Source: Salinivirgaceae bacterium
Lineage (GTDB): Bacteria > Bacteroidota > Bacteroidia > Bacteroidales > SZUA-534
Reading direction: 5' to 3'
DNA length: 37,664 nt
NCBI GenBank assembly: GCA_027858735.1
Contig: JAQICC010000048.1
Location: forward strand, 1 to 37,664
The notes beneath the pieces are model-generated. The model was not told the origin of the DNA. It did not search any database and saw nothing but the letters and a program-made list of their open reading frames with translations. Within the stretch, counting starts at the first letter, position 1, and each line of letters begins with the position of its first letter. The position numbers and the translations under genes are program-made. This document shows positions 13,391 through 36,783 of this stretch, in pieces.

Positions 13391-14599
13391 TTATTTTTTC
13401 AACTTCACGAACAAAACATCATGCCCCTGAATTGTTGCTTTAAGTGATTTTTTAGTGTTCCCAAGGGTTTTATTTTCCCAAACATTAAAAATCTCAAAAG
13501 TATCCTTTCCAAAATCAGCTTTTTTACCAGAAAACGTATCATCTAGTGGATTATCTTTCCAATTGAATTCAATAGTTGCTTCATTTATACTTCTGTTTAA
13601 AAAACAAACAGCAAATTCATTAGAGGCTAACGGTTTTACCCAAACATCAACCCCTCCAATTACACCATGCTTATATGCTTGTATGCCAAGCGAATCCTGA
13701 TTTACAGAAACAGCATGTGGATTGGTTAATATTTCGGTAGTTTCTTTACTCATCTGGCGTAAATCGTTTCCGGCAATTAGCGGAGCGGCTAACATACACC
13801 ACAGGCTAAAATGCGAACGATCTTCACTTAAAGTCATTCCATTGCCAATTTCCATCATATCAGGATCATTCCAATGTCCTGGACCCGCAACTTTTCTAAG
13901 ACTATCGTTGTCTCGCAAATCAAGAATTTGCAGTACTCCCCACGAATTCCATGTGCCATGATCGTAAACACAATCGAAACAATTGTAAATATCGCCTGTA
14001 GTTCTCCATAAATGGCCAACGTCTTGCGCCCACTTCCATGGTTCGGTATCGCCCCATTCGCAAATACTAAAAACGATAGGTCGTCCGGCAGCTTTTAATG
14101 CCTGACGCATAGTTAAATATGCACCTTCTGATTTTAAGCCATCGGTATTACACCAATCGTATTTTAAATAGTCGATGCCCCACTTTGCGTATTGCTGAGC
14201 ATCCTGGTATTCAAAACCTCTGCTACCTGGATGTCCTCCGCAAGTTTGCCAACCTGCATCGGAATAGATACCTAGTTTTAAACCTTTGCTATGCACATAA
14301 TCGGCTAAAGCCTTCATGCCATTTGGAAAACGCACAGGGTCGGGATGAATAAATCCAAGGCTATCACGTTTACCATGCCAGCAATCGTCAATATTTATGT
14401 ACTCATAGCCGGCATCTTTCATTCCTGTTTTCACCATGGCATCTGCCATTTCACGAATCATGTCTTCGCTAACATCGCAAGCAAAATGGTTCCAACTATT
14501 CCAACCCATAGGGGGTGTTAAGGCCAAGCCATCATATTTTTGCGAAAATAGGCCCAAAGAACCCAATAGCATTGCAAAAAGTGTTATTTTTTTTATCAT
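13391..14599 (-). CDS. GH27 alpha-galactosidase
   Basis: A 402-residue protein from the ATG at 14597-14599 (MIKKITLFAM), which opens a good signal peptide ending LFSQ; an in-frame TTG 69 nt upstream would add a poor leader and run into the preceding gene. GH27 hallmarks are clear: LTPPMGWNSWNHF (about 27-39), YINIDDCW (67-74), LGIYSDAG, GIDYLKYDWCN with the predicted nucleophile Asp148, WRTTGDIYN with the predicted acid/base Asp203, and GHWNDPDMMEIGN. A C-terminal beta-domain ends the protein. The family removes terminal alpha-1,6-galactose; here the expected substrate is galactosyl side chains of galactomannan oligosaccharides. With no lipobox or sorting tail, it is probably periplasmic. It is the last gene of the unit starting with the GH5_7 mannanase, 61 bp after the GH28-like gene. 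Confidence 0.95.
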   Translation of the reverse strand: MIKKITLFAMLLGSLGLFSQKYDGLALTPPMGWNSWNHFACDVSEDMIREMADAMVKTGMKDAGYEYINIDDCWHGKRDSLGFIHPDPVRFPNGMKALADYVHSKGLKLGIYSDAGWQTCGGHPGSRGFEYQDAQQYAKWGIDYLKYDWCNTDGLKSEGAYLTMRQALKAAGRPIVFSICEWGDTEPWKWAQDVGHLWRTTGDIYNCFDCVYDHGTWNSWGVLQILDLRDNDSLRKVAGPGHWNDPDMMEIGNGMTLSEDRSHFSLWCMLAAPLIAGNDLRQMSKETTEILTNPHAVSVNQDSLGIQAYKHGVIGGVDVWVKPLASNEFAVCFLNRSINEATIEFNWKDNPLDDTFSGKKADFGKDTFEIFNVWENKTLGNTKKSLKATIQGHDVLFVKLKK

Positions 14600-14660
14600 A
14601 GTTCTATTATTTAAAATTTCAATATCAAATGAGAATTGCAACTTAATCATTAACTGAATT

Positions 14661-16220
14661 TTATTCAATCGCTACATTACTACTTTCCACACCTTTTTTA
14701 TTTAAATCAGTAGTAAAGTTTTTTCCGTTTTCAATAAATACAGCTTTAAGTGATCTGTTTGATGGTGAGGCACTTGTTTTTACACCTGTTAATTGCAGAC
14801 CATTAAATTCTTTCACATGAATACCATGTCTAAAATAGGGTTCTTTCACCTCAGCCCAGCTAATTACACAATCATGTAATTTCAAATCATTTACATATTG
14901 AGCATAAAACGCTGAAATGTCTGATGCAAACAATTGTCGTTCACCCATCGTACCACGCAAATCAATATTACCGCCAGCTACATCGTTTAGTTTGCTATTA
15001 ACAAGCTTAAATCTTACGTTTTCAAAACGTATATCTTCAATAATACTTTCATCCGACCCATATAAAAGAATACCATTTTCGGCGGTACACGTAATGTCTC
15101 TAAAAGTTACATTTTTAATCTGACCCAATTTCACGCTATCTTCACCACGCACAGCTGATATATGAATCGGTTCTCCATTACCCCACCAATCACCGGTATG
15201 TAAACGCGTTTCAATATTTACCTGTGAAATAGTAACATTCTCAACCGATCCACTGCCTCGTACAAAAATACCAATCCCCCTATTCGAATTTGTAATATTA
15301 ATATTACTAATATGTATATTTTTAATACTGTTTTGATCGATAAAGCCTAACCGGATTCCACTTGATCGAGATTGGAGATTACAATTGGTAATGCAGAAAT
15401 TCTCAGATTTATGAATAAGATTTTCGTAACCCGGTAGTTCATAATGGTGTGCATATCCAGTAATAACTATGGCATCATCACCAGTTCTAATATCGCAATT
15501 TGAAACAGTTACATTATTGCAGGAAGTAATATCAATACCATCGCTATTTGGCGTAAAAAGACTTGCCCAAATTTTAACGCCTGATACATTAACACCGTCA
15601 CAGTCGGCAAAATGCAATGTCCAAAATGGAGATTTTATTAATTGAATATCACGTACCAATACATTTTTGCAATCAGAAAAAATCACCATTTGTCGAGGTC
15701 TATCTTTTGGCTTAACTGGGCCATCACCAATTCCAGAGTCAACAGCCCTATACCTGTCTTTTTGTCTAGTAAATTGACATCCACCCCATTCAATAGATTT
15801 AGCTTTATCCCATTCAAAAAAAACCTCCTCATTTCCATTTATTGCACCTTGGCCAGTTATTGAAACATTGTAAGCTTTATGGGCATAAATAATTCCATAA
15901 TTAGAAGGGGTTTCAAAAATTGGAGACTTATAGGGTTTATAATCAGCTAAATCAGGACTACCTTTTAGTTCAGCCCCAGATTCAAGGTATAGGTTTACAT
16001 TTGATTTTAATTCCAAGGTACCTGAAATAAAAATACCTGAAGGAATATATACTGTACCACCTCCGTTTGCTGTACAGGAATCAATAGCTTTTTGAATTGA
16101 TTTCGTATTAAGTGTTAAACCATTAGGTATTGCGCCAAAATCAGTAATATTAAATGTTTGTGCCACAATTCCACTATATAAAGCAGTTAATATTAGCACC
16201 AGTGCAAGGCCTTTTATCAT
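14661..16220 (-). CDS. GH28-like (polygalacturonase-fold) secreted protein
   Basis: A 519-residue protein with a signal peptide (about 1-20, ending IVAQ). It has the pectinase-type opening FNITDFGAIPNG, AIDSCTANGGGTVYIPSG, and a right-handed beta-helix of many short repeats. GH28 catalytic positions are only partly conserved: NSDG (225-228) and the GDDAI aspartates (Asp248, Asp249) are present, but the usual GHG is replaced by SSG (287-289) and the usual RIK by a FVRG string (319-322). The fold and two of the acidic residues support hydrolysis of an alpha-linked uronic acid, rhamnose or other sugar, but the precise reaction is open. It sits between the epimerase (30-bp gap) and the alpha-galactosidase, an unexpected place for a pectin enzyme. 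Confidence 0.85.
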   Translation of the reverse strand: MIKGLALVLILTALYSGIVAQTFNITDFGAIPNGLTLNTKSIQKAIDSCTANGGGTVYIPSGIFISGTLELKSNVNLYLESGAELKGSPDLADYKPYKSPIFETPSNYGIIYAHKAYNVSITGQGAINGNEEVFFEWDKAKSIEWGGCQFTRQKDRYRAVDSGIGDGPVKPKDRPRQMVIFSDCKNVLVRDIQLIKSPFWTLHFADCDGVNVSGVKIWASLFTPNSDGIDITSCNNVTVSNCDIRTGDDAIVITGYAHHYELPGYENLIHKSENFCITNCNLQSRSSGIRLGFIDQNSIKNIHISNINITNSNRGIGIFVRGSGSVENVTISQVNIETRLHTGDWWGNGEPIHISAVRGEDSVKLGQIKNVTFRDITCTAENGILLYGSDESIIEDIRFENVRFKLVNSKLNDVAGGNIDLRGTMGERQLFASDISAFYAQYVNDLKLHDCVISWAEVKEPYFRHGIHVKEFNGLQLTGVKTSASPSNRSLKAVFIENGKNFTTDLNKKGVESSNVAIE

Positions 16221-16250: not shown

Positions 16251-17441
16251 TTAACTAAGCCTTTCAATTAACTCCATGCAAGCCCGACCATTATGATAAG
16301 GACATTTCCAAAACCCAGCTTTGTCATTCTCAGTATATGGAACCCTATCCTTATTTACACTCCAATACCACTCACCATTATCTTTATCAACAATGTATTT
16401 TTTTATGAAGCTCCAACTATTCAGCGAATTTTGCAAATATGTTTCGTTGCCCGAGAGTTGATAGGCATTATAAAAGCCTACAATAGCCTCAGCCTGAGGC
16501 CACCAATGCTTATCAGTATCCGTATGATTTTTTGAGGGAAATGTTTCATAAATCAGACCCCCATCAGCATCAATACCTTTAAGGGCAGCCTGTGCCATAT
16601 TCACGGCAATATTTGCAACCTTTTTAGTCAACGCTGAATCACCCAAAACCTCTGCAGCTTCATGCAATAACCAAGAACATTCTATATCATGCCCGTAGGA
16701 AATCATATCAGACTTGGCAGTCCAATCATCATCGAAAAAAAGTATTAAATTGTAATTTTGATTGATAAACTTATCGGTAAATAGCTTTATTAAATTACTT
16801 AGCGCTCCCTTCAATTTATCATTTTCCCATTCTCTATAAAGATTCGTATAGGCCTCAAGAATATGCAAATGGGTATTCATGGTTTTGCTTTCATTATCAT
16901 CCTTTTCGCTTAAACGATAATCATCCATTTTATTCCACTCACATGTAAGCGCTTCAAAATAGCCATTTTTATCTTTATCGAAGCTATGCTTTTCAATCAA
17001 ATAAAATAAATCAACAGCAGAAGCAAGTGCATTTTTATCTCCACATGCCTTATAGTATTCAACCATTCCATAAATTACGAATGCTAATCCATATATTTGA
17101 TTGCGTGTGTTTGAGGGATTTCCCATAAAATCAAGCTCCCAATAAACACCTCCGTATGTTTTATCAATAAAATGATCTAAAATATATTGATAGGCTCTTT
17201 GTGCCATTTTTAAATCGTCTTCATTGCGATTTATTCTGTAGGCCGAAGCAAAAGTCCAAAGAATTCGTGCATTCATTACTGCCCCTTTGGGAGCTTCAGC
17301 ATTGGGAACATTATTATGATTAATGCTTCCAATAAATCCACCATGCTTTTCATCGATAGTATTTGCTCTCCAATAACCCAAAATATTATTTTGAAGCTCT
17401 GATTCTAATTCTGTTCTTAGTTTTAATAAATCTGTACCCAT
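16251..17441 (-). CDS. Cellobiose/mannobiose 2-epimerase (AGE family)
   Basis: A 396-residue protein without a signal peptide, hence cytoplasmic, of normal family length. It has the (alpha/alpha)6-barrel pattern of the N-acylglucosamine 2-epimerase superfamily, with MNARILWTFASAY, NTHLHILEAY (His191), SYGHDIECSWLL (His251), KHWWPQAEAIVGF and WKCPYHNGRACMELI (His383). Those three histidines match the spacing of the cellobiose 2-epimerase active site. In mannan loci this enzyme turns beta-1,4-mannobiose into 4-O-beta-mannosyl-glucose, the substrate of the GH130 phosphorylase encoded at 25929-27116. Only 6 bp separate it from the GH5_7 mannanase, so they are co-transcribed. Assignment to mannobiose rather than cellobiose rests on context. 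Confidence 0.93.
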   Translation of the reverse strand: MGTDLLKLRTELESELQNNILGYWRANTIDEKHGGFIGSINHNNVPNAEAPKGAVMNARILWTFASAYRINRNEDDLKMAQRAYQYILDHFIDKTYGGVYWELDFMGNPSNTRNQIYGLAFVIYGMVEYYKACGDKNALASAVDLFYLIEKHSFDKDKNGYFEALTCEWNKMDDYRLSEKDDNESKTMNTHLHILEAYTNLYREWENDKLKGALSNLIKLFTDKFINQNYNLILFFDDDWTAKSDMISYGHDIECSWLLHEAAEVLGDSALTKKVANIAVNMAQAALKGIDADGGLIYETFPSKNHTDTDKHWWPQAEAIVGFYNAYQLSGNETYLQNSLNSWSFIKKYIVDKDNGEWYWSVNKDRVPYTENDKAGFWKCPYHNGRACMELIERLS

Positions 17442-17447
17442 ACTAAT

Positions 17448-18761
17448 TTAAGGTATTCTATTAAATTGTTTATTGTATTTTCTAATTATGTCAATTGTCG
17501 ATGTATCTTCTGGATAAACTGAATTCAAACCCTGCTCCTCTTGCGGTGGATCACCAGAATAAGGATCTCCTGCTTTCCAATAAATTTGTCCACTTATAGG
17601 ATGAGTAAATCCGCCAAAGGTCCAAAAATTAGCTCCTACCAGATTTTTACCGGCCTCAATACTTTTCGAAATTTGGCCAAAGGCATAGTCATAGTATTTA
17701 TCGCGGTAAGTAACCGGCGTACCTACTTCAAATAATTCATTGTCGCGAGCTATGCCAAACTCTTCGAGCACAAGCGGTTTATTTAATTTTTGTGCCACAG
17801 CCATATGGTCATCAATGTATTTCTGAACCTGCTGCAAAGCTATAGGAAAGGTTGAATCGGCTTGTTCATGATTGTACCAACTCCAGTTTTTAATCCAAAT
17901 ATGAAAGGTTAAATAATCAATGGAAGGTAATGCATGAATGGTTTCAAAAAGATCAAGAGATTCTGAACACCCTTTTTCACCTTCATTACCTGTTGTAACT
18001 AAGTGGTTTTGATCAAGGCTTTTAATAAGTTCTGAAGTTTCTTTTACCCATTTAGTAAAGGGTTCAAAATTATCTTCAGCCATTGGCCTAGGTTCATTGG
18101 CAAGTTCCCAAGCCATAATTGATGGGTCATTCGTATATTTTAGCCCGTTTACCGTGTTGGTTCGGGTAACAATGTATTCAATGTATTGATTTACTTGCTG
18201 AATGCAAGTGTCGCAGCTATAAAATTGCTTTTGATAATTATAAAAATCATCCCACGAATATTGCTCTAAGTTAGGATTAACAAATTCGCCATATCCATTC
18301 CAATTAAGGTACTGAGCCATTCCTCCTGACCATTCCCAATTGTTTGTTAAATACAAAATTGCACACATATCGCGTTTTTGCAATTCATTTAATAAATAAT
18401 CAAGTCCTTCCAATAGTTTAGGACTATATACACCCGGTTCTTTAACTAAAGCCGGTGTTACCCTAAAAGGTTGATTATCGGGTCCTTCTGCTCCTACTGA
18501 AACACGAAGGTTGTCAATTCCATTTTCTTTTAAAAAATCAAGTTCTTTGGCTAACCTTTCACGGTCTCCACCAACAGTATCGGCTGCCAGGCTTGCGCCA
18601 TACCAATAATTTGCTCCTATATAATTATAGGCTTGGCCATTTTTTATAAACTTTCCGTTTTGTACGGATATAAATTCAACATTGTCGGTTTGAGTTTTAC
18701 ACCCAACCATAAGTATTAAAACCAATTGAATACTTAGAGCAAAAAGAAAAATTTTATTCAT
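17448..18761 (-). CDS. GH5_7-type endo-beta-1,4-mannanase lipoprotein
   Basis: A 437-residue protein with a lipoprotein signal (LILMVGC, lipid Cys21), expected at the outer membrane. The barrel opens with YNYIGANYWYG and has LRVSVGAEG, LTNNWEWSGGMAQYL, IMAWELANEPRP with the predicted acid/base Glu223, LTFHIWIKNW and LVLEEFGIARD with the predicted nucleophile Glu334. WELANEPR plus the LTNNW...GGM and HIWIKNW blocks are typical of GH5 subfamily 7 mannanases. It would cut the mannan backbone. It opens the second transcriptional segment of the locus, directly after the terminator at 18806-18841, and is followed by the epimerase. Confidence 0.93.
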   Translation of the reverse strand: MNKIFLFALSIQLVLILMVGCKTQTDNVEFISVQNGKFIKNGQAYNYIGANYWYGASLAADTVGGDRERLAKELDFLKENGIDNLRVSVGAEGPDNQPFRVTPALVKEPGVYSPKLLEGLDYLLNELQKRDMCAILYLTNNWEWSGGMAQYLNWNGYGEFVNPNLEQYSWDDFYNYQKQFYSCDTCIQQVNQYIEYIVTRTNTVNGLKYTNDPSIMAWELANEPRPMAEDNFEPFTKWVKETSELIKSLDQNHLVTTGNEGEKGCSESLDLFETIHALPSIDYLTFHIWIKNWSWYNHEQADSTFPIALQQVQKYIDDHMAVAQKLNKPLVLEEFGIARDNELFEVGTPVTYRDKYYDYAFGQISKSIEAGKNLVGANFWTFGGFTHPISGQIYWKAGDPYSGDPPQEEQGLNSVYPEDTSTIDIIRKYNKQFNRIP

Positions 18762-18853: not shown

Positions 18854-20791
18854 TTATTTTTTGTTAAATTTAGAAATGGCAGCTTTACCATCGCTATCAG
18901 TAACTTTAATTATATATACACCTTCGTGTAAATCACTAATACTAATTGTTTTCGATCCATTTAATGCTCTGTCAATAACTTTTGATCCGATAACATTAAA
19001 TACCTGAACGTTCTCGGCATTATCCATATCAATGCTAATTTGACTGTAAGCAGGATTAGGATAAACATGAAGCACGTTTCTTGCAGCTCTCTCAGCAATG
19101 GCTGTTGGCCATCCACCTGAAAGTGTAACTTCTCCCCAATACTCATTAGTTAAGTAAGCCACATCGGTATCTGTATTGTTCGCCCAATTCAATATTGATT
19201 GACGACCATCAACAGCGTTTGCATCAAGTATGGAAAGCTCAAATGCAATTTTCATTCCTTCTGATAAAGAGATGGCATCTAAAGCATCTTGCGATGAATT
19301 CGAGTTTGTTCTGAACCAAGTAGCCCAAGGTATACGAGCCTCAATTACATAACCGCTTGAACTTGAAATAATTTTAAATTCAATATTTGTAGTATCGCTA
19401 TCTCCAAAAAATGCATCCATACCTAAAGTAACACCATCACCACCATCACCATGTGCTGGGCCTTCAGTTCCATAATTAATGCGCATTTGATGTTGCTCAC
19501 CGCTTATGCGTGAAGAACCAACATAGCGACGGTTTTGAATGTCCATAAACATTTCAACACCATCATTCATCCAAGGCGAAGTACTTTCACCCAATTCAAT
19601 TGGATCGTCATCAGTTACTTCAATAAAAATATAGAAATTATCAAGATCACCAGCTGCTAACCATTCACCATAAGTATCAGTTTCTGATAAATCTTCACCA
19701 GTTTCGTTATTAGCAACACGGTTAACAACATTGGCTACTTCACCATACGCATCATCATATAATCCATCAATAACAATTTCTTCGCTTGTAAATGCAACTA
19801 CTGTTGTATTCGGGGCTTCAGCTAATTGAGCCTCAGCATAGAATACAGTAATTTTGCTTATATAAACATAAGCATCAACAACAGCTGGCCAATCGCCTGT
19901 AGTTTCTTGAGCTGCAATTTGTAAACCAGTAACAATACTTTCTGGCTTAGCATCTGCTTCAATTTCAGTTAAATCGGTTGGTGCTGGATTAAGCGAACCA
20001 CCAAATAAATTACCATTTGCGTCAGTAGCATTTATTAAGGCTTGAGCATTTGCTGCATCAATACCCGATTCGCCAACATCGTACTTCAATTTAAACGTCA
20101 TTTTGTTGTTACTACCCACTTCAAATGCAGTAATTGGAAGATTAGATTCCCAACCATTCAATTTAACTTTTAGCAGTTTTTCGCCACCTTCTTCAACAAC
20201 TTCCATTCCGTCAGGTAAAGTTGATACATCAACTGATGCAGGATCAAATAAAATACTTGCATCAACTGACATTAAACGGCCTACCCACATGGTATCCCCA
20301 ACAGTTGGTCCCCAAGCTACAGTCTCTTGTCCAAAGAATTGAATTTGATGTACAAGTTCCATTTCTGCTGTAATATCTGCCTTTCTTAGGTGCCATCCTT
20401 CAAGTGAAGGATTCTGACCTAAAGCTGTGTTTGCAGGAACCATTACGCTTGCATCCCATGATGCAGGAACTGTATTTACCGTATCCATAATTTGAACAAC
20501 TGATGAAATGTCAGCTAATGTTAAACCATCAGCGACTGTTGAGCTCCCTTGTGAGAACTTAACCATTCCATTAATTTGTGTTCCTAAAATACCGCTTACT
20601 TCCGGAACATCAATTGTTGAGTTCCAACCATTAATAACTACTTGAAGGTAGGATACGCCATCGATTTCGACAACTTCCATACCATCAGCCAACTCGCCAT
20701 CATAAGTGGCAGGATCAAGAATTACTGTTTGAGCATTAACTAGCCCGAAAGCCAGTAAAGCCAAAAGTAAAGTAAAGATTTGTTTTCTCAT
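18854..20791 (-). CDS. CBM9-like surface glycan-binding candidate with T9SS sorting tail
   Basis: A 645-residue protein. The signal peptide ends at VNAQ (about 21). Two related modules follow: residues about 22-180 and 181-322 share DPA, DGMEVVE and an L.V..NGW core, an internal duplication. Residues about 330-560 resemble a CBM9-like domain: IDGLYDDAYG, FYIFIEVTDDDP, WMNDGVEMFMDI, GYVIEARIPW and MKIAFELSILDAN. The final 73 residues, from LHVYPNPAYSQISI, are a type A T9SS sorting domain. It has no hydrolase motifs. Its place directly after SusD (67-bp gap) is where SusE/SusF-type surface glycan-binding proteins usually sit, so a mannan-binding role is inferred. Export by T9SS rather than as a lipoprotein is unusual for that position. 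Confidence 0.85.
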   Translation of the reverse strand: MRKQIFTLLLALLAFGLVNAQTVILDPATYDGELADGMEVVEIDGVSYLQVVINGWNSTIDVPEVSGILGTQINGMVKFSQGSSTVADGLTLADISSVVQIMDTVNTVPASWDASVMVPANTALGQNPSLEGWHLRKADITAEMELVHQIQFFGQETVAWGPTVGDTMWVGRLMSVDASILFDPASVDVSTLPDGMEVVEEGGEKLLKVKLNGWESNLPITAFEVGSNNKMTFKLKYDVGESGIDAANAQALINATDANGNLFGGSLNPAPTDLTEIEADAKPESIVTGLQIAAQETTGDWPAVVDAYVYISKITVFYAEAQLAEAPNTTVVAFTSEEIVIDGLYDDAYGEVANVVNRVANNETGEDLSETDTYGEWLAAGDLDNFYIFIEVTDDDPIELGESTSPWMNDGVEMFMDIQNRRYVGSSRISGEQHQMRINYGTEGPAHGDGGDGVTLGMDAFFGDSDTTNIEFKIISSSSGYVIEARIPWATWFRTNSNSSQDALDAISLSEGMKIAFELSILDANAVDGRQSILNWANNTDTDVAYLTNEYWGEVTLSGGWPTAIAERAARNVLHVYPNPAYSQISIDMDNAENVQVFNVIGSKVIDRALNGSKTISISDLHEGVYIIKVTDSDGKAAISKFNKK

Positions 20792-20858: not shown

Positions 20859-22616
20859 TTATCGCCATGCGTCATATTGTTCTAAACCTGGGGCCTTTTG
20901 CAATTCTTCGGCCGGGATTGGAAAAAACTCATGCTTGCCTTTCACATAGTTCACTACCAAACCATCACCCATTGAAGCTAGTGTTATTCCATTGATAAAT
21001 TTCTCGGCCAAATCCCAACGCACTAAATCAAAAAAGCGGCTTGTTTCCATAGATAGTTCCAATCGGCGTTCATGAACAATATCTTCGAATGAAACAGCAG
21101 GCAAATCGGTTGGATAACCAGTATAGCCAGAATTACGAGCACGAGTACGTACTTGATTTACATAGCCTAAAGCTTTGCCATTGTCCTGAGTTTTAAGAGC
21201 TGCTTCAGCAGCCATTAATACAACATCGGCATAACGGATTAAGCGAATATTCATTGATCCGTTTTGATCGGCCAATTTAACATTCCAATATTCATCGGGT
21301 GAACATTCGAATTTTCGTCCTATTGTATTTGTAGGCAAGTTCACAAAATCCATTTCATACCATGAACCGCCGCCAGATTCGGCTATTAATACAGTATCTC
21401 CAGGCACACCTATTGCTGTTTGAAAACGAGGGTCTAATTCTGGATCAACCACAGTAGAATTTAAATCGGTTTCACGCGTATCGTTATTTCCAAAAGCATC
21501 AAGCAGATATTGGGAAGGTAAATTGAAGCTCCAACCACCTGCGGTATTGCCACCATTGCCATCTTCATCAATATAAAAGCGAATGGTCGAATAAATAGTT
21601 ATGTAGTTGCCTCTACTAGCAGTCCAATCTTCACCATCATTCACATTTTGTACTTCCCAAACGCCTTCATCGCAATTGTCGCCATCAACTGTAAAAATCC
21701 AACGGTAGCCACCAATTGTACCATCAACAGGAGCTCTCCAAGAAGGAAAACGCTCTTCACCTATTCCAACTAAACCATACTGACCTGAATTAATTACTTC
21801 TTCTGCATAGAGAAGAGCCTCATCATATTTTTCTACACAACCGCTAAAACGAGCATCATCGCTGTAATTTTCGGCATATGATGATTCATATAATAAAACT
21901 TTTGCCATTAAAGCTTTTGCTGCACCTTTACTTGCTCGTCCAACATTTGAACCTAATTCGCTTTTTTCAAGAAGTAATGGAATTGCCAAGCGTAACTCAT
22001 CTTGAATAAAATGGAGTACTTCAGCAATAGAATTTCTTGGAACACCAAACTGTTCTGGATCCATTAAATAGTTAACAATGGGTACCCCACCGTAAAGCTG
22101 CAATAATGTAAAATGATAAAACGCACTTAAAAAATGCATTTCGGCTGCACGTAAATCTATTAATTCTACAATTGCTTCAGCAGCATCGGCCGATTTTGCT
22201 TTTTCAACTTCCAATGCTTTTATATCATCAATTCTTGGTAATACAGTGTTTATCATACGAAGACCTTTATAAGGATAAGCCCAAGCGCGATGAATTGAAG
22301 ATTCCGTAGCTGTATGGGTTAAGCGATCGATGCGCTGATACTGAGGCCAATCGTTTACATTTTCCCCACCAATTTCTACATCGTCGGCTGCACACTGGTA
22401 ACCCAATGAATAAGTTACATCGTATACATCGCGTGTTGCTAACATAGCATATGCTGATGTAGCAGTTGCATCAAGATTTTCGAAATTGACATAATAGGCT
22501 TCTGTTGTATCTGATCCGAGTGGCTTTAAGGTCAGCATTTCATCGGTACATGAAGCCAGCATCAGTATAACCAATGCTACTATTGAATATTTTTTTGCGT
22601 TCATCATTATTTTCAT
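20859..22616 (-). CDS. SusD/RagB-family glycan-binding lipoprotein
   Basis: A 585-residue protein with a lipoprotein signal (LMLASC, Cys23). Starts at Met1, Met4 or Met5 all preserve it. The SusD fold shows as TPR-like helices early on (AYAMLATRD, YPYKGLRMINTVLPRID, EMHFLSAFYHFTLLQLYGGVPIV) and the usual C-terminal SusD signatures: IRLIRYADVVLMAAEAAL, YVNQVRTRAR, FEDIVHERRLELSMETSRFFDLVRW. It would cap the SusC barrel at the cell surface and bind mannan oligosaccharides. It lies 9 bp after SusC. Binding specificity cannot be read directly. Confidence 0.97.
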   Translation of the reverse strand: MKIMMNAKKYSIVALVILMLASCTDEMLTLKPLGSDTTEAYYVNFENLDATATSAYAMLATRDVYDVTYSLGYQCAADDVEIGGENVNDWPQYQRIDRLTHTATESSIHRAWAYPYKGLRMINTVLPRIDDIKALEVEKAKSADAAEAIVELIDLRAAEMHFLSAFYHFTLLQLYGGVPIVNYLMDPEQFGVPRNSIAEVLHFIQDELRLAIPLLLEKSELGSNVGRASKGAAKALMAKVLLYESSYAENYSDDARFSGCVEKYDEALLYAEEVINSGQYGLVGIGEERFPSWRAPVDGTIGGYRWIFTVDGDNCDEGVWEVQNVNDGEDWTASRGNYITIYSTIRFYIDEDGNGGNTAGGWSFNLPSQYLLDAFGNNDTRETDLNSTVVDPELDPRFQTAIGVPGDTVLIAESGGGSWYEMDFVNLPTNTIGRKFECSPDEYWNVKLADQNGSMNIRLIRYADVVLMAAEAALKTQDNGKALGYVNQVRTRARNSGYTGYPTDLPAVSFEDIVHERRLELSMETSRFFDLVRWDLAEKFINGITLASMGDGLVVNYVKGKHEFFPIPAEELQKAPGLEQYDAWR

Positions 22617-22625: not shown

Positions 22626-25600
22626 TTAAAAAGTAACATTAAGCCCACAACTATACATTTTAGCAGTTGGATATGCTGCCTTGTCAATTCCTGCACTACG
22701 CGGATCAGAGAACCCTTGAGCATTTCTTGTTGAACCCACCTCAGGATCGAGACCTGAGTATTTTGTAAATGTTAGCATATTTTTTGCTGCGAAATACACA
22801 CGAATTCTTGAAATATGTGCCATTTTGCTAATTGTTGCAGGAAGCGTATATCCAATTTCAATATTCTTTAGTCGCACATATGACCCATCTTCAATATAAA
22901 AATCTGATAAACGGGTGAAATTTTCATTTGAACCAATAGGATCAATGCGTGGATAGGTTGCTCCATCATTTAATGGGGTTACCAATTCATCGTTTCTATC
23001 ATAAAGCTCAACAGTATAATGGTCGTTGTAATAATCTTCACCCCAGTTAAAACCACCATCGGTATTGTATAAGTAAAACTTGGTTGCATTAAAAATTTTA
23101 TGTCCGAAAGCTCCTTGAAAAAATGCTTTAACATCAACCATTCCAAGATTTTGTGGAAGCGTAACTTCGGTATATAAATTTAAACCAAGCGTAAACTTAG
23201 GATGAGGACTGCCTAAGGGTACCATATCATCATCACCTAATTTGCCATCACCATTGGTATCTTTAAATTTAAAATCGCCAGGGCTTGCTCCTGGCTGAGC
23301 ATATTCAATCTCGCCATCAGGATTCACTGTGTACGGTTGATTGGTACATATGCCCTCTTCATTCGGACTATCAGACAAACGGAATAAACCATCGGTTACA
23401 TAACCATAAAAAATATCGAAGGGCTGGTTGCTCATGGTTCTGGTTAAATTAGAACCAATACCCTTTGTGGTTCCTTGATACAAAGTATCGGGTTCAATTT
23501 TACCTACGTAAGTATTAATGTATGTAAAGTTCAAGTTGGCACCATAATTAAACATACCCCGTTTTTCTTTCCAACCTAAAGCAAGTTCAATACCTTTATT
23601 ATTAATTTGACCGATGTTTTTAGTAGGATCTGAAATTTCATTCCTAACGGTTTCCTGGTATACGTCAGTAACTCTCCAACCTGCCATCCACGGCGACTCC
23701 ACTGTCATAAGCATGCCATTATTATGGCGTTCGAAGTAATCAATAGATACCGAAAATTTATAATCCAGAAAGCCAAAATCAAGACCTAAATTCGAGGTTT
23801 GCACCTCTTCCCAATGGATAGATCTATTCACAAATTTATCGGGAGCTAATCCTGAGCTTGTTACAGGCATATTGTTATAAGAATAACTATTTACTGCTGT
23901 ACCCCCAACTGTAGAATAATACTGATAGGGTGAAACGGAATTATTTCCTACAATACCCCATCCGTAACGAATTTTACCAAAGTTCATAAATGGTAATGTA
24001 TTGCGAACAATATCGAGCTCTGTAAATTTAAATCCTGCAGAGAATGATGGGAATATACCCGAACGTTTATTTGGTCCAAATTTTGAAGAATAATCTTTAC
24101 GCACATTAAACTGCCCTAGAATCATTCCCATATAATCGTAGCTTACTCGACCAAGATATGAGTACCCTGCTTCTTCACTAGCTGTACCATCTGGTATCTG
24201 CGAAACAGCGGTGTCATTTCTGGCTCCATTATAATACCACATTTCACGATCCTGGTTATATAAATCCAAACGAGTTGCATTGCTCCATTCGCTTATACTG
24301 TATCCCGATTCCATACCTGCCAGAGCACTTAGATTATGCACATCGAAAAACGATTTATTAAATGTTAGCAAATTTTGAAAAAGCCATCCACTATACATAT
24401 CAGTACCTTTAGCAATTGAACTGATGTCGTTTTTATTTGAAGGCGTAACAAAATAAATAGGTGCAAATTCCATACTATTGCCAAACCCAACATTTCCTGT
24501 CAATCTACTTTCAAAGCTAATTGCGTCAATTGGTGTCACTTTCCCATAAAAGGTTGCACTACCATTTTGGCTTCTTGATTCACGATTTTTTAAATTAACC
24601 ATTGCTAATGGGTTACCTGTATTTCCAAGTGGAGTAAACGACCAACCGTCATCGTATTTTGAATCGGTTGTTTTTTCGCCGTACGGTGGCACCCATGAAT
24701 GATAAGCCAAAGCCGCTAAAATTGGACTTGCATATTCATCTTTTAGCTCCCATTCCTGAAAACCAGTATAAATCTTATTCGAATAGTTTGTATTTAAGCC
24801 AACTTTTAACCATTTATTTGCAGCATGTTCACCATTAATTCTTATGGATAGCTTTTCGTACGCACTACTTTTTAAAATACCTTCTTGCGATAAATAGCCA
24901 ACTCCCATGTAAAAGGTTGACTTTTCATTACCCCCTGAAACACCTAGATCGTAATTTTTCATCATTGCTTTTTGAAAAATCATATCCTGATAATTATAGG
25001 TTTGAAAGGTATCGGGTTGGGTTGTTAAATAATTACTAGCGCGTGCATTTGCCAACACTTGATACTCGTGATACATTTTGGCAAATTGAGGTCCGCTGGT
25101 AACATTTACTTTGTTAGCAGCTTGCTGTACACCCCAATATGAGTTAAATGTTACTTTGGTATCGCCGGGCTTACCTTTTTTAGTAGTAATTAAAATTACA
25201 CCACTACCCGCATTTGCACCGTAAATTGCCGCTGAAGATGCATCCTTAAGAATTTCCATTGATTCAATATCAGATGCATTTACTGAGTTAGGATCAGCCC
25301 CAACACCATCAACAATCCAAATAGGGTCGGTACCATTAATTGAAGTAATACCTCTAATTTTAATACTCACAGCAGAACCCGGAGCTCCACTATTTGAGGA
25401 GACCTGAACGCCAGCGGCTCGCCCTTGCAAAGCTTCCTGTATTGACGCCGCTCTTGACTGCTCCAAATCTTCGGCAGAAACTGATGCTACAGCACTTGTT
25501 AAATCCGATTTTTTTTGAGTACCGTATCCAATAACTACTATCTCAGATAATTCTTTAATATCCTCTAACAGTACCACATCAAGTATAGCATTTGCTGTTT

Positions 25601-25877
25601 TGCTTAAATCAATGGAATACTTTTCGTTTAAGTAGCCAATAAAGCTTACCTCAAGGTTAACTACTTCCAAATTTAGGTTTGGAATTGTGTACTTCCCATC
25701 CAAATTGGTAACAGAACCATTGGTAGTTCCCTGAACAATTACGTTAACCCCTATTAACGGATCACCACTAACATCAACTACTGTCCCTGTAACACTTCCG
25801 GTTTGTGCATAAAGCGCTACCGGAAATAGAAAAAGCAGAAGAAATCGGGAAAATTTAATCAGTAAAGTTTTTTTCAT
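22626..25877 (-). CDS. SusC/RagA-family TonB-dependent outer-membrane transporter
   Basis: A 1083-residue protein, normal for the family. The signal peptide ends at LYAQ (about 25). A carboxypeptidase-regulatory-like beta-sandwich (about 26-110: GSVTGTVVDVSGDPLIGVNV) precedes the family signature ELSEIVVIGYGTQKKSDLT, the plug (SIQEALQGRAAGVQV, VSIKIRGITSINGTDPIWIVDG, MEILKDASSAAIYGANAGSG) and a 22-strand barrel that closes with an aromatic residue (LNVTF). It imports glycan fragments across the outer membrane using TonB energy, working with the adjacent SusD. It begins 51 bp after the GH130 stop codon, in the same apparent operon. Confidence 0.97.
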   Translation of the reverse strand: MKKTLLIKFSRFLLLFLFPVALYAQTGSVTGTVVDVSGDPLIGVNVIVQGTTNGSVTNLDGKYTIPNLNLEVVNLEVSFIGYLNEKYSIDLSKTANAILDVVLLEDIKELSEIVVIGYGTQKKSDLTSAVASVSAEDLEQSRAASIQEALQGRAAGVQVSSNSGAPGSAVSIKIRGITSINGTDPIWIVDGVGADPNSVNASDIESMEILKDASSAAIYGANAGSGVILITTKKGKPGDTKVTFNSYWGVQQAANKVNVTSGPQFAKMYHEYQVLANARASNYLTTQPDTFQTYNYQDMIFQKAMMKNYDLGVSGGNEKSTFYMGVGYLSQEGILKSSAYEKLSIRINGEHAANKWLKVGLNTNYSNKIYTGFQEWELKDEYASPILAALAYHSWVPPYGEKTTDSKYDDGWSFTPLGNTGNPLAMVNLKNRESRSQNGSATFYGKVTPIDAISFESRLTGNVGFGNSMEFAPIYFVTPSNKNDISSIAKGTDMYSGWLFQNLLTFNKSFFDVHNLSALAGMESGYSISEWSNATRLDLYNQDREMWYYNGARNDTAVSQIPDGTASEEAGYSYLGRVSYDYMGMILGQFNVRKDYSSKFGPNKRSGIFPSFSAGFKFTELDIVRNTLPFMNFGKIRYGWGIVGNNSVSPYQYYSTVGGTAVNSYSYNNMPVTSSGLAPDKFVNRSIHWEEVQTSNLGLDFGFLDYKFSVSIDYFERHNNGMLMTVESPWMAGWRVTDVYQETVRNEISDPTKNIGQINNKGIELALGWKEKRGMFNYGANLNFTYINTYVGKIEPDTLYQGTTKGIGSNLTRTMSNQPFDIFYGYVTDGLFRLSDSPNEEGICTNQPYTVNPDGEIEYAQPGASPGDFKFKDTNGDGKLGDDDMVPLGSPHPKFTLGLNLYTEVTLPQNLGMVDVKAFFQGAFGHKIFNATKFYLYNTDGGFNWGEDYYNDHYTVELYDRNDELVTPLNDGATYPRIDPIGSNENFTRLSDFYIEDGSYVRLKNIEIGYTLPATISKMAHISRIRVYFAAKNMLTFTKYSGLDPEVGSTRNAQGFSDPRSAGIDKAAYPTAKMYSCGLNVTF

Positions 25878-25928: not shown

Positions 25929-27116
25929 CTATTTGTTGCTTTCTTTATTCTTATTTATTAAATCGTAAATCGATTGTACTGAAGTGATACTTCTCAATCC
26001 GTCTTCAGGAGAATTTTCACAGTAATCAATTAACTGATCAGTGCTTGATTCTGCTACATGTAACCGTGTATCTGATGATGCATAATAAATCAATACTCTA
26101 CCATCATCGTCATTAATCCAGCCATTTGAGAAAACCACATTGGATACGTCGCCCACTCGTTCACTGCATTTCGGAGCAATAAAATGCCCTGCAGGTTTAT
26201 GAATTATTTTAGTTAAATCGTTCAAGTCAGTCATGAATACATACAAAACATAGCGTAAACCCGCTGCCGTATTACGAACACCATGCGCCAAATGCAACCA
26301 ACCTTTAGGAGTTTTTATAGGTGCTGGTCCTAAACCATTTTTAACTTCATAAACGGTATGGTACTGTTTTTCATCAAGAATTACTTCGTCTTTAACCTCA
26401 GCATTTTCCATGCTATTGCTAAAACCAAAGCCAATTCCACCGCCCGATCCGGTATCAATAAAACCGTCTTGCGGACGTGTATAAAGTGCGTACCTGCCAT
26501 TTACAAATTCAGGGTGCAACACCACATTTCTTTGCTGCCCCGAATAAGTAATTAAATCGGGTAAACGTTCCCACGATTTTAAGTCTTTTGTACGAGCAAT
26601 GCCTGCTGCTGCAACTGCCGATGAAGTATCCCCTTCTGATGCCTTAGGGTCTTTTCGCTCAGTACAAAAAATACCATAAATCCATCCATCTTCGTGTTGT
26701 ACTAAGCGCATATCGTACACATTAGTATCCGGATTTTCAGTTTCGTTCATTAATATCGGATACTCCCAAAATTCAAAATTATCGATGCCATTAGCACTTT
26801 CAGCAATGGCAAAAAACGATTTACGATCGTTGCCTTCAACACGAACAGCTACTACATATTTTCCGTTAAACTTTAACGCCCCCGCATTAAACGCTGCATT
26901 AAAACCAATACGCTCCATTAAAAACGGATTGGTTTCAGCATTTAAATCATAGCGCCATGTTAATGGAATATGCTTTGCTGTTACCACCGGGTTTTTATAA
27001 CGGCTATATACACCATTTTCAATAACAGTTCCTTTTTCGTTTTCACGCCCTATTAATTGGGCATGTTCTTGTTCTAAATTTTTTAATCGATCAGTAAAAC
27101 TCATATTTATTGTCAT
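25929..27116 (-). CDS. GH130 4-O-beta-mannosyl-glucose phosphorylase
   Basis: A 395-residue cytoplasmic protein (no signal peptide) with a five-bladed propeller fold. Landmarks are [22 protein letters not shown], the catalytic region [19 protein letters not shown] with the predicted general acid Asp135, [32 protein letters not shown] and [19 protein letters not shown]. The long N-terminal helix ([17 protein letters not shown]) is typical of GH130 subfamily 1. Members phosphorolyse mannosyl-glucose to mannose-1-phosphate and glucose. The internal Met at 27102-27104 (MSFTDRL) may be the true start; the acid would then be Asp131, which I recall as its position in the Bacteroides fragilis enzyme. 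With the 2-epimerase it forms the known non-hydrolytic mannobiose pathway. The sulfatase stop codon lies 26 bp upstream. Confidence 0.94.
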
Positions 27117-27142: not shown

Positions 27143-28897
27143 TTAATTGCTTCGGTAAATTTCTATTCCTTTAATCTCAATATCAGAGGCTTCATTATCT
27201 TGATAAACCAAATTCATTAAACATGCTCCCTCTTGTAAGCTCAATTCGCCTATTGTCTGGCTGCCCCACGAAACTTCATCAACCTCATCGCGTGTCACCC
27301 TATCTTGGTTTTTTACTATAGATTTACTAATTGCATTTTCAATTTTAAAATTCAGTTGGTGGTTTTGACAGGAAAGGCTAAAATTGTCGCCTACAGTTTT
27401 TTTACTACCTACATAATGTAATTTCACATTATACCGGCCCGTATTCACTACATTAATTGGCCACTGCATATAATCGCTGGTGTCTGTCCAATTTAGCACC
27501 CAATCGTTTGCCCAACCCATGCCTCCTGCAAATTCAACATGGTTTCCCAACGCACTTTCATGTGCAGGAAGTTCAGTCATTGGAGCAATTCGGTGTCCTA
27601 TTTGAATAGGTTCCGGAATCAAACCTTTACTTTTTACTTGTGGTAACCATTTATTAAAATCATTAATAAGCGAATCGGCCAATGCATTTTCACTTTTCAA
27701 AATATTCATCATTTGAAAAGGATCTGTTTTGATATTAAATAATGCGGTATCGTGAGGATAAAGTGTCAGTAAATAGTCATTGGTTCTAACCGATCCTGCA
27801 AAGCTATTTTCATCGAATATCTGGTGCGAATAGAATTTCCTGTCAACTAAATGTTTAGTACTATCCATTAAAATACCAGCAAAGCTTTTACCATTAAAAG
27901 TTAAAGTGTCACTTGATATTTTACACAAATCTAAAATGGTTGGAAAAAGATCGATATGAGCAGCAAAATCATCATTTACTTCTCTTGATTTTATGTTCCC
28001 ACCAGGATAGTTTATAATAAACGGCACCCTAACTCCACCTTCATCAACCTGAGCCTTGCGCCCTTTGTACCCACCATTATACCTTACGTAATTAGGTCCG
28101 TTATCGCTTAAATAAATAAATATGGTGTTATCGTGTTTTTGCTCTGCCTTTAGTGCATTTTGTATACGCAATACATTGTCATCGATATTCTCGCACATAC
28201 CATAAATAGCTGCCGTTTTATCATCCAGTCCCTTCTTAATATATTTATTAAAATATTTATCGGGAACCTGATAAGGCGTATGAGGTGTATTGTAAGCTAC
28301 AATTGCCATAAAAGGCTGGGGGCTATTATGAATATATTGAACTACCGAATCAGTTATTACATCAGTTATATATCCTTTAGTTGCTACCTTTATGCCATTA
28401 CTCTCTAATTTAGCATCGAAATAATTATTCCAGTGTCCTGCGCAAAACCCAAAAAACGTTTCAAACCCCTGACCTAAAGGATCATGAGGGTACTGTTGTC
28501 CATTATGCCACTTACCAAAATAGGCTGTTACATATCCATTTTCGCTTAAAACCTCAGCTAGGGTAGTTTCACGCTCACGCATTACCTCTTTTCGGTGAGT
28601 AAGCCATGATGTACCCGTTGCTAAATGATACTTGCCTGTTAAAATACTAGCCCTTGTTGGAGCACATACCGGCGACACATAAAAACGATTAAAAACAACC
28701 GCTTCTTTTGCCAAAGAGTCAAGTGCCGGAGTTTCTATTATTTGGTTTCCATTATAACCTACATCACCCCATCCTTGATCGTCGGTAAGTACAATTATTA
28801 CATTAGGCTTAACGCTTGAACTATATTTCCAAGAGCATCCAGTAAAAAAACTGGACAGCACTAAGCTTAATATTATATTCACCAATACGCTATTCAT
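27143..28897 (-). CDS. S1-family sulfatase lipoprotein with C-terminal beta-sandwich
   Basis: A 584-residue protein with a lipoprotein signal (FFTGC, Cys21). The type I sulfatase core is intact: [17 protein letters not shown] with metal ligands Asp39/Asp40, [15 protein letters not shown] with Cys78 in the C-x-P-x-R formylglycine motif, [19 protein letters not shown] and [10 protein letters not shown]. Residues about 435-584 form an extra domain ([34 protein letters not shown], ending [10 protein letters not shown]) like carbohydrate-binding beta-sandwiches. It removes a sulfate ester from a glycan; the sugar and position are not readable. Its start overlaps the stop of the small membrane protein (ATGA), so translation is coupled. 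A formylglycine-generating enzyme must be encoded elsewhere. Its place in the operon suggests the natural substrate is partly sulfated. Confidence 0.92.
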
Positions 28898-29244
28898 TTT
28901 ACAGGAATAATTAAGTGGTGAGTACTATTTTTCGATGTTGGTTGAATTATATTTTTAAATAGAATTGAAATCGTTAAGCCTGCAACAATAAGAAATGGAA
29001 AATACCTTGGGAATAAATCCCAAGGTAAAAATTCCACTAACAAACTACCAAACTTAATTACTGCCATAGTATAAATACTAGGGCTACTCATGAGAGTATT
29101 TACTATTACTAAACTATTAAAAAACTCAAAATTTATTTGTAAACTAGTAAGCCACAATTCGCCAATTATAGCCACAATTAAAAAAATCATTGCAGCTAAT
29201 ATTAACTTATGCATTTTTATTATATGCTTACCAAATAGACTCAT
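28894..29244 (-). CDS. Small hydrophobic membrane protein, unknown function
   Basis: A 116-residue protein not assignable to a family. Hydrophobic stretches lie at about 13-34, 42-70 (less clear) and 82-100, suggesting two or three membrane helices; the C-terminal tail is polar ([15 protein letters not shown]). The gene is real by context: its ATG follows the GH26 stop codon after one base, and its TGA overlaps the sulfatase ATG in the sequence ATGA. A start at Met11 is possible. A helper for export, anchoring or sulfatase maturation is conceivable but unsupported. Confidence 0.7.
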   Translation of the reverse strand: MSLFGKHIIKMHKLILAAMIFLIVAIIGELWLTSLQINFEFFNSLVIVNTLMSSPSIYTMAVIKFGSLLVEFLPWDLFPRYFPFLIVAGLTISILFKNIIQPTSKNSTHHLIIPVK

Positions 29245-29245
29245 A

Positions 29246-30376
29246 CTAAAATTCTTCTTTGTATATATTTTTAATTTCAGACAAAAACAGCGTCATATCG
29301 TCATTTACAAAATCAATAAAATTAGGTACACTATTATGTCCAGGATAAGGAACATAGAAATGATCGGGTCGACCATTGCGCCAAAATAAAATATACGATA
29401 TGCCCGCTGTCTTTGAATTCGTTTTAATCATTGGCAAAACCACATCGGTAAACCAAATCTCGTTCGGAATGGTTTCAATCCCAGTTTCTGATATGGTATA
29501 AAGCTTATTTTTTTCACTTGCCAAATCGGCTAATATCTCAAGTACTTTAATACTATTGTGCGTATTCGCCTTTTCATTTAAGCCTTTATAATCATCGTAA
29601 CCTAAAATATCTACATATGCATCACCCGGATAATAAGCTAAGTACTCTTCTTTTGTACTAAAAAAATCGGTTGAGTATATATAAATAATATTATGAAGCT
29701 TTCTTTCATTTCTCAGGTAATCAACTGTGAATTTCCAAAGGGCTTTATACTCATTGGTTGTGCACGATTTTGCACCCCACCAGAACCATCCTCCATTCAT
29801 TTCATGAAACGGACGAAATAAAACGGGTATAAGCTCGCCTTTATCGTTCTTTAAATCGGCAAAGAAATCAGCTACCTTATTTAACTTAACAAGATATGCT
29901 TCATGTTTTTCTCCATTAGGCAGTATGTCAGCAACACAAGAAGTTGTATCCCAACTACTCCCCTCAGTATTAAAATGTCGACTATGCCATCCATAGGTGT
30001 TAATTCCGCCTTTTTCATAAGCTTTTAACGACCACTCTTTCATTTTATCAAACGATACATTATCAATATTTGAGCTATCGCCAATGTGACCTAAGTCCCA
30101 CCCAAAAATTGCGGGATGGTCACCGCATACATCATTAATATCCGTTCTAAAATTTTCATCTTTCCAACCCATACCATATGCCAAAGCATCTTGGTGTCCA
30201 ACCAAAACTTTTTGCTTTGCCAGAGTTGACATATTATTATATAAGCTTATGGTTTGACTGGTAGCCAAATTATCGCTTAAGTTATTTACTGGCGAAGTAT
30301 TTGTTTCTGTTGTTGAATTGCACGAAGCTAAACCTCCAACAATAAAAATAAATAATGCTTTTTTCAATTGATTCAT
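29246..30376 (-). CDS. GH26 endo-beta-1,4-mannanase lipoprotein
   Basis: A 376-residue protein with a lipoprotein signal (GGLASC, Cys19). The GH26 mannanase pattern is clear: KVLVGHQDALAYGMGW (about 56-71), PAIFGWDLGHI (88-98), GGINTYGWHSRHF, PVLFRPFHEMNGGWFWWG with the predicted acid/base Glu192, GYDDY, YTISETGIE with the predicted nucleophile Glu297, and ISYILFWRNGRPDHFYVPYPGH. It cuts the beta-1,4-mannan backbone, probably giving mannobiose and larger fragments at the surface or in the periplasm. It is the first gene of the main operon, behind a promoter candidate at 30406 and paired direct repeats. With the GH5_7 enzyme the locus has two unrelated mannanases. Confidence 0.96.
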   Translation of the reverse strand: MNQLKKALFIFIVGGLASCNSTTETNTSPVNNLSDNLATSQTISLYNNMSTLAKQKVLVGHQDALAYGMGWKDENFRTDINDVCGDHPAIFGWDLGHIGDSSNIDNVSFDKMKEWSLKAYEKGGINTYGWHSRHFNTEGSSWDTTSCVADILPNGEKHEAYLVKLNKVADFFADLKNDKGELIPVLFRPFHEMNGGWFWWGAKSCTTNEYKALWKFTVDYLRNERKLHNIIYIYSTDFFSTKEEYLAYYPGDAYVDILGYDDYKGLNEKANTHNSIKVLEILADLASEKNKLYTISETGIETIPNEIWFTDVVLPMIKTNSKTAGISYILFWRNGRPDHFYVPYPGHNSVPNFIDFVNDDMTLFLSEIKNIYKEEF

Positions 30377-33857: not shown

Positions 33858-33872
33858 ATTTTAGAAACTATT

Positions 33873-35042
33873 ATGTTGAACCACAACGCTAAAATAAATA
33901 CGTATATGGTAATGATAGCCCTTACCTTTTTAATATTTACTACCGGCTGTCAGGAACCCTATTTAAATACAAATTTAAATGCCAATGAGCATATACCGGT
34001 TTTTAATGGTTTATTAACAAATATCGACAAGCTAAACACGTTTAAACTGACCTATGCTGCACCTTATACCCAACAACAAACCGAAGGCATTGCAGGAGCA
34101 ATTATTACTATTGAAGATCAAAATAATAGACTAATTCAGCTTAAAGAATCGGGGAATGGAGTATACAAGCTTCCTAACGGGAGTGCCGATTTTAGTCCCG
34201 AAAATGAATATATAGCTACCATAATTCTCGCCGATGGAAGTGTAATAAAATCGGAACCTATTTTTTGGAATGACACCTTGCCACTTGCCAATGTATTTTT
34301 CGATTTCAATATAAAAACATCGCTGGTAAAAAACTCGGCAGGAGAATACATTAACGTAAACCAAGAAGGTATTTTTGTTAAATTTAAATTGCAGCAACCA
34401 AAAACCGAAACGGTTTATTACCGGGTAAACGCCGATTATTATGTGCATTCACAAAAATGGATAAGTAGGGTTGGCGAATATATTATACATGAACCTCATT
34501 ACGACATAGTTTACGAAATTAGATACGATACACTTTATGATATCTACGAAGGATTTAGTAACGTAGATTTTCCAGTTACGGGTGAACTTTTCCCTTACAT
34601 TGAATATGATCAGAGTGATTTAACCGTTTCTGCGCTTTTTTTACCTGCCGATAATGAATGCCGAAACTTCTCAAATTATACTGAGGACAACTTTATTGAA
34701 TGGCTTATTCCTATTGACTTGTATCACACATCGGAGCAAGTGCATAATTATTATAGCAATGTAGCAAAACAGCTTGGAGCATCGGGGCAAATATTTGATC
34801 CTATTCCTGATCAAATAATTGGGAATATGCACAACGAAACCGATCCCAGCGAACCCGTATTAGGCCTATTTGATGTCGTGTCGGTTAACCGTAAATACCT
34901 GCAAATTTATGTATATGAATCTTTGGGTTACCGCTCATATCAGAGCAAAACATTAAGCGATACTGTTATTAAGCAAGGTTGGTATCCCAATCAATTTTAT
35001 GTTGATACTGTATTTATAGATTCTTTACCGGTTAATAATTAA
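33873..35042 (+). CDS. DUF4249-family lipoprotein
   Basis: A 389-residue protein with a lipoprotein signal (IFTTGC, Cys26). It has the DUF4249 layout: an N-terminal beta-sandwich (IPVFNGLLTNIDKLNTFKLTYAAPY, AIITIEDQNNRLIQL, YKLPNGSADFSPENEYIATI) followed by a second region with several Tyr-rich strands and a C-terminal segment with YYSNVAKQLGASGQIFDPIP, close to DUF4249 endings, then a shorter variable tail. Members sit next to TonB-dependent receptors, apparently as surface partners analogous to SusD; the biochemical role is not established. Start at 33873 keeps a normal-length signal; Met12 or Met14 would shorten it. Confidence 0.88.
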   Translation: MLNHNAKINTYMVMIALTFLIFTTGCQEPYLNTNLNANEHIPVFNGLLTNIDKLNTFKLTYAAPYTQQQTEGIAGAIITIEDQNNRLIQLKESGNGVYKLPNGSADFSPENEYIATIILADGSVIKSEPIFWNDTLPLANVFFDFNIKTSLVKNSAGEYINVNQEGIFVKFKLQQPKTETVYYRVNADYYVHSQKWISRVGEYIIHEPHYDIVYEIRYDTLYDIYEGFSNVDFPVTGELFPYIEYDQSDLTVSALFLPADNECRNFSNYTEDNFIEWLIPIDLYHTSEQVHNYYSNVAKQLGASGQIFDPIPDQIIGNMHNETDPSEPVLGLFDVVSVNRKYLQIYVYESLGYRSYQSKTLSDTVIKQGWYPNQFYVDTVFIDSLPVNN

Positions 35043-35079
35043 TAAACTAAAGTGATAAATTCTAAATATCAATCTGACA

Positions 35080-36759: not shown

Positions 36760-36767
36760 TGCATGAA

Positions 36768-36783
36768 ACCCTCAAGCGAGGGT
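36768..36783 (+). terminator. Weak hairpin after the MG2-like gene
   Basis: ACCCTC (36768-36773), a 4-nt loop and GAGGGT (36778-36783) form a 6-bp GC-rich stem 8 nt after the stop codon. No T-run follows (GGCAATTATTTG), so termination would be partial at best. It lies 70 nt before the next gene. Confidence 0.35.

Follow-up and report, generated by a model that had tools for sequence, protein, structure and literature searches.

What is the short open reading frame (ORF) of 116 residues that separates a GH26 β-mannanase gene from a sulfatase gene in an apparent β-mannan utilisation operon of a Salinivirgaceae bacterium? The operon lies within positions 1-37,664 of contig JAQICC010000048.1 (assembly GCA_027858735.1, 98.9% complete); we refer to this whole stretch of 37,664 nucleotides as the window and to the genome as G000. 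An earlier, sequence-only reading took the ORF to encode a membrane protein that could be a dedicated helper of one of its neighbors. We consider it very probable, instead, that the ORF is a strongly diverged remnant of the SSF symporter for mannobiose and mannosylglucose that once belonged to this operon, which has since been remodelled.

The position of the ORF points in this direction. In a genome of the same family (G001; HGW-Bacteroidetes-4, PHDD01000005, loci L012 and L094), the operon reads GH26, SSF, sulfatase, GH130, SusC, SusD, CBM9 protein, GH5 and epimerase, and this nine-gene order is shared with the window once the slot is counted, the ORF standing in the place of the SSF gene; GH28 and other extra genes of the window follow the colinear segment. 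The G001 SSF is full-length at 613 residues, starts 9 bp after GH26 and directly precedes the sulfatase, which unlike that of the window lacks the Cys and Arg of CxPxR and the His of GKWH. A second relative (G002; Marinilabiliales UBA12394, DOTG01000026, L067 and L095) has the same order apart from the slot, and its GH130 is 76% identical to that of the window, but its GH26 gene is followed after 16 bp by the sulfatase and then by GH130, with no SSF between them, and its sulfatase has lost both the catalytic motifs and the C-terminal part. One bacterial family thus shows the slot in three states, namely an intact symporter, the 116-residue putative remnant and nothing.

We tallied what follows GH26 for 97 distinct GH26 genes; the loci had been chosen for resemblance to GH26, SSF or sulfatase and are not a random sample. 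An SSF was commonest (27 cases), ahead of unannotated genes (24), genes on the opposite strand (14) and GH130 (10), with the other 22 of mixed kinds (two being contig ends). In a GH26 tree of 20 rows, the sister of the window was a clade of eight rows (support 93/90), and G001 and G002 branched next. Six of these eight rows have an SSF directly after GH26, and the contig ends after GH26 in the other two. Given this tree and these neighbors, together with the SSF of G001, an SSF gene adjoining GH26 looks like the ancestral arrangement. Within the eight-row clade, an in-frame stop divides the SSF of G143 into parts of 77 and 521 residues (L014:4185-6023), which may reflect real decay or a sequencing error.

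The slot is matched by similarity in sequence. From 144 loci, with the short or repeated stretches L033-L066 left out, we took 7,988 distinct ORFs, including 58 SSFs, and searched them with the ORF by BLASTP. The first 11 non-self matches were all SSF (the one from L005 being the best match again in truncated form), as were 24 of the 29 non-self matches down to an E of 5, and the syntenic G001 SSF came first (query residues 25-84 on SSF residues 104-166, E 0.017). The SSF matches converge on query residues ~43-88 against SSF ~125-170 in G001 numbering; overall, residues ~25-88 of the ORF resemble symporter residues ~104-170. In a pairwise comparison with the G001 SSF, 18 of 63 residues were identical (29%, E 9e-6). 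A hidden Markov model (HMM) built from the nine nearest SSFs gave the ORF 13.1 bits, a score that shuffles of three kinds reached in 1, 0 and 0 of 10,000 cases; 382 other hydrophobic segments all stayed below it, the best at 7.3 bits (a 383rd segment, from cut locus L001, was the ORF itself and was removed). No SSF piece scored positively in the other reading frames of the slot. The ORF is no full-length symporter, with neither the length of the whole fold nor a match to PF00474, which the G001 SSF matches at 2.9e-26; a close copy of the symporter is also absent from the rest of the genome, where the best SSF match has 25% identity (E 5.2e-20).

In operons of the kind that combines GH26, a symporter, GH130 and an epimerase, to which the window operon would belong, the symporter is thought to supply GH130 with mannobiose and mannosylglucose by carrying them into the cytosol. 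Large deletions combined with strong divergence would have reduced this sodium:sugar symporter, ~610 residues long in relatives, to a piece in which part of the SSF region ~104-170 was spared, and that piece is probably too small for transport. Its locus accordingly lacks an inner-membrane disaccharide importer of its own; such importers are common but not universal in mannan loci, some of which have none near GH26. The genome does encode a GPH-type importer of the MFS on another contig, in a second mannan locus (G000:C9), where a GPH/MFS_2 protein 55% identical to the GPH of another genome's mannan operon is accompanied by two GH26 genes, a mannose-6-phosphate isomerase-like gene and a hybrid two-component regulator. 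GPH genes adjoin GH26, GH130 or epimerase genes in many other loci (e.g., L108, L111, L117, L129 and L160), and because this is the class that replaces the symporter in other mannan operons, its presence in the genome may have made the loss tolerable and the symporter dispensable.

Under the helper idea of the sequence-only reading, the ORF would encode a small membrane protein of other origin, which took the symporter's place and assists the lipoprotein-like sulfatase or the mannanase. There are features that would fit such a protein. A frame of 116 codons has a chance of only P ~5e-5 of being open at the base composition of the ORF, its synonymous-codon score was reached by none of 2,000 base shuffles so that its codon use is host-like, and the frame is open despite the divergence although it matches nothing in Pfam (even at an E of 10) or NCBIfam. 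Both junctions are tight as well: TAG-T-ATG leaves one base between the GH26 stop and the start of the ORF, and the TGA of the ORF lies on the sulfatase ATG in a four-base ATGA overlap. The three-gene order and these two junctions had been described correctly, as had the identities of the mannanase and the sulfatase, and the stop/start arrangement at both junctions is that of translational coupling, making co-production of the three proteins possible on sequence grounds. The packing does not single these genes out, however, for it is typical of the whole operon: of 14 same-strand junctions counted across the window, 6 are shorter than 10 bp, one being an 8-bp overlap (the count omits the CE2-to-GH5 pair, between which a plus-strand gene lies). 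Nor is the sulfatase at the head of the operon, as had been supposed; GH26 comes first and the sulfatase third.

The sequence-only reading had itself named a lack of homologs at other sulfatase loci as one half of what would speak against a helper. None was found at the sulfatase and mannan loci examined: outside the weak SSF similarity, the 116-residue protein had no BLASTP match under E 0.9 among the 7,988 ORFs, matches at E 0.01 in 20 genomes of the family (its own included) were the protein itself and one SSF, and in a pattern scan of genome contigs, with only close relatives in reach, 0 of 95 matches were confirmed as homologs. The best matches are instead SSF symporters at one consistent place, and both same-family loci with a readable GH26 neighbor have either an SSF or nothing in the slot. 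We consequently regard a helper as quite improbable. A likeness to small membrane proteins of the DUF5658 type was also considered and set aside, since no Pfam match appeared at E 10. AlphaFold2 predicted three helices from the single sequence (pLDDT 73, pTM 0.34), which is too weak for a fold search.

If the ORF is a remnant, it may still be asked whether anything keeps it open. As one version of the remnant reading, rather than a competitor to it, the ORF could be a role-less pseudogene in decay whose frame is open by luck or recency; the total loss of the slot in G002, the in-frame stop in the G143 SSF of the neighboring clade and the low GC content of the ORF (0.276) would all agree with this. 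To gauge it, we simulated neutral evolution with two related SSF genes as starting points, 3,000 runs for each. At an identity to G001 of ~27% all 116 codons were open in 0.2-0.3% of runs, and at ~34% in ~0.7%, the observed identity being 29%. This rarity, together with synonymous codon use that is still host-like, speaks against a role-less pseudogene, which we hold to be a tentative possibility with somewhat less than an even chance, and suggests that the frame has been kept. It might serve as a translated bridge over which ribosomes leaving GH26 reach the sulfatase, so that polarity is avoided, or it might have some small membrane role.

Several points weigh against the ORF being a retained symporter remnant. 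The similarity is weak and spans about half of the ORF, with no convincing SSF match for residues 1-24 and 89-116. The nine-SSF HMM was built after one of 20 SSFs, which gave the ORF 8.1 bits, a score that 6 and 5 of 5,000 shuffles attained; with an HMM of 48 SSFs, one unrelated GPH segment ties with the ORF at 8.1. The second non-self match in phmmer was an unrelated protein of G000, and lower down SSFs are interspersed with many unrelated ORFs. Our searches turned up no other genome of the genus and no intermediate SSF form. Insertions and deletions were not part of the simulation, and when only the 63 aligned codons are considered, 4-7% of runs kept them open. Finally, redundancy with the GPH importer is something we infer from gene content. 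Nevertheless, the similarity to the SSF of the same slot exceeds the controls, if less clearly with the broader HMMs. We judge the statistical case for descent from an SSF to be moderate, and the case from statistics and exact slot together to be good.

The sulfatase had been taken as a sign that the true substrate is a sulfated, perhaps algal, mannan. Aligned with 21 relatives, the window copy has every motif checked intact (DD, CAPTR, K, GKWH, TPH, SDNG and KGRK), which with its PF00884 match places it in S1, the [CS]xPxR and metal/sulfate-binding motifs being those that we take to define this group. Sulfatases of its subfamily recur near GH130, mostly with GH26 and an epimerase as well, in other Bacteroidota and on a Rhodothermaceae contig: intact relatives share a stretch with GH26, GH130 and epimerase in G363, G394, L123 and L139, with GH26 and GH130 in L122, and with GH130 and SSF in G320. 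The branch of the window copy is also short (0.55) beside those of G001 and G002 (1.56 and 2.54).

Other observations point away from a sulfated substrate. Of the 22 rows, 19 retain an intact [CS]xPxR site (one is of the Ser type), and the three exceptions, G001 (GSQSL, GKWQ), G002 (NSYSY and further changes) and G003 (CSSTQ, GKWY), belong to one genus of the window's own family; these are the three same-family copies found, although farther ones may exist given that family and order were searched at E 1e-100 and 1e-95 and the G002 copy was found by synteny. In the sulfatase tree they form one group (support 100/99), in which two branches are long and that of G003 measures 0.54. The C-terminal part is missing from G002 and G003, and the start of G003 is cut by a contig end, leaving its DD site unjudged. 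The table of motifs omits the G240 pieces, two distant paralogs and repeated loci.

No maturase was recognised in the genome either. The matches to the FGE fold at E 1e-10 were GldK, GldJ and a 691-residue protein whose NCBIfam matches lie far under cut-off, and the highest anSME score, 70.8 bits where the cut-off is 349.45, came from peptide-maturase-like radical SAM proteins; a maturase could still lie in the ~1% of the genome that the assembly misses. The window sulfatase is moreover the sole non-membrane PF00884 match of the genome at E 1e-10, the other three being multi-helix membrane proteins, two of them LTA synthase-like though far under cut-off and the third of 1,008 residues without a CxPxR site by eye. 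One close homolog (G229) lies outside any mannan locus, while the contig of another (G383) ends near its sulfatase; in a distant group with CSPTR or SAPTR sites, only G347 has a GH26-like gene, itself distant (25%) and amid several sulfatases. GH27, CE2, GDSL esterase and GH5 suggest an acetylated galacto(gluco)mannan, the first three pointing to galactosyl and acetyl decorations, and β-mannan loci are labelled non-sulfated in the part consulted of a survey of North Sea Flavobacteriia (PMC6298971). The recurrence beside mannan genes and the intact motifs thus stand from the earlier claim, but absence of a recognised maturase, broken family copies and the type of the accompanying enzymes do not favor it; a sulfated mannan is a possible substrate, weakened for this organism, and that the intact enzyme desulfates one here is doubtful. 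It may once have desulfated mannan oligosaccharides; other copies at the same place in the family have lost their motifs.

One may postulate a scenario that joins these strands, although we think it rather unlikely as a whole. The job of the importer would have moved to GPH, and the symporter gene would have been pared down yet kept open as a bridge or as an exapted membrane microprotein. The sulfatase of the family would meanwhile be turning into a catalytically dead protein retained in the mannan locus, with the intact window copy either a late stage before that switch or dependent on a maturase of a new kind.

Features of the window operon, listed in gene order starting from GH26
Feature	Position	Strand	Basis
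GH26 β-mannanase, operon gene 1	29246..30376	-	PF02156 E 2.9e-47; PDB 4zxo best (E 2.1e-81), next Cellvibrio CjMan26C entries
116-residue membrane ORF, proposed symporter remnant	28894..29244	-	SSF similarity; slot equal to G001 SSF slot
S1-type sulfatase with C-terminal part lacking assignment (residues ~430-584)	27143..28897	-	PF00884 E 4.7e-61; motif table
GH130 mannosylglucose phosphorylase	25929..27116	-	PDB 3was E 8e-174 (4-O-β-D-mannosyl-D-glucose phosphorylase)
SusC/RagA outer-membrane transporter	22626..25877	-	TIGR04056 778 bits
SusD-like glycan-binding protein	20859..22616	-	Pfam PF07980, PF14322
CBM9-domain protein, type IX secretion (T9SS) tail, SusE/F position	18854..20791	-	Pfam PF06452, PF18962
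GH5-like glycosidase	17448..18761	-	PF00150 E 1.1e-9; 72% identity to syntenic G001 and G002 genes
Cellobiose/mannobiose 2-epimerase-like	16251..17441	-	NF041848 408 bits, under cut-off 800, E 3.8e-122
GH28-family protein	14661..16220	-	PF00295 E 4.7e-21
GH27 α-galactosidase	13391..14668	-	PF16499 E 5.8e-78
GDSL esterase, PKD domains, T9SS tail	11147..13147	-	PF13472 E 1.5e-14
CE2-type acetylesterase	9296..11140	-	PF17996 E 2.9e-30

The N-terminus of the GH26 protein appears lipoprotein-like (GLASC, judged by eye, as were our remarks on lipoboxes, membrane helices and missing motifs in proteins of other genomes). The GH28-family gene, which overlaps GH27 by 8 bp, sits inside a mannan operon while its family is otherwise known for pectin enzymes. 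Genes for a TonB receptor, a DUF4249 protein and two unnamed proteins lie at 31092-37537 on the plus strand and run divergently from the GH26 operon; all four are kept at the same place in G002 (55, 44, 33 and 46% identity) and three of the four are matched in G001. Rfam and tRNA scans of the window returned 0 matches. Elsewhere in the genome, G000:C323 (L196 and L199) carries clustered radical SAM/SPASM peptide-maturase-like genes that may be a cluster for ribosomally synthesized and post-translationally modified peptides. G240 has a fragmented sulfatase in the vicinity of GH130 and SSF (L083:3359-3938); over 116 residues, one fragment shares 66% identity with the window sulfatase.

With GH26, a GH130 mannosylglucose phosphorylase, an epimerase and SusC/SusD in one locus, the window has the gene set of known β-mannan polysaccharide utilisation loci (PULs). 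A Bacteroides fragilis pathway (Senoura 2011) is reportedly of the same GH26, symporter, GH130 and epimerase kind. The PUL of Muricauda sp. MAR_2010_75 contains GH26, a symporter, a GH130 mannosylglucose phosphorylase, an epimerase/isomerase and, as in the window, GH27; in the part of that account consulted, the PUL-encoded symporter is assigned the import of manno- and manno-gluco-disaccharides (PMC9860051). The bacova_02087-97 locus of Bacteroides ovatus is described, in the portion consulted, as a β-mannan PUL of the same type (PMC5217682). In open-access literature we found no sulfatase within a GH26/GH130 β-mannan locus, and no shrunken symporter either, though the latter was not searched for as such. 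The S1 sulfatases nearest in the PDB by sequence, 6bia (named Sulfatase) and the ι-carrageenan sulfatase 6b0k/6b0j, share the motifs checked, whereas the window enzyme is distant in sequence and differs in its extra C-terminal part, its mannan-locus context and a genome in which no maturase was recognised. A sulfatase gene alone is no proof of a sulfated substrate, and active site and maturase need checking. Where the window departs from the known β-mannan PULs is in the symporter cut to a 116-residue ORF, the sulfatase between that ORF and GH130, and the GPH-type importer in a second locus. What we describe is a known kind of β-mannan operon in a remodelled state, its importer apparently a remnant here, gone from the slot in G002 and whole in G001. 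As the adjacent sulfatase also occurs within the family in two states, with motifs intact and with motifs lost, importer replacement and the decay of an enzyme into a pseudoenzyme become directly comparable within one glycan operon.

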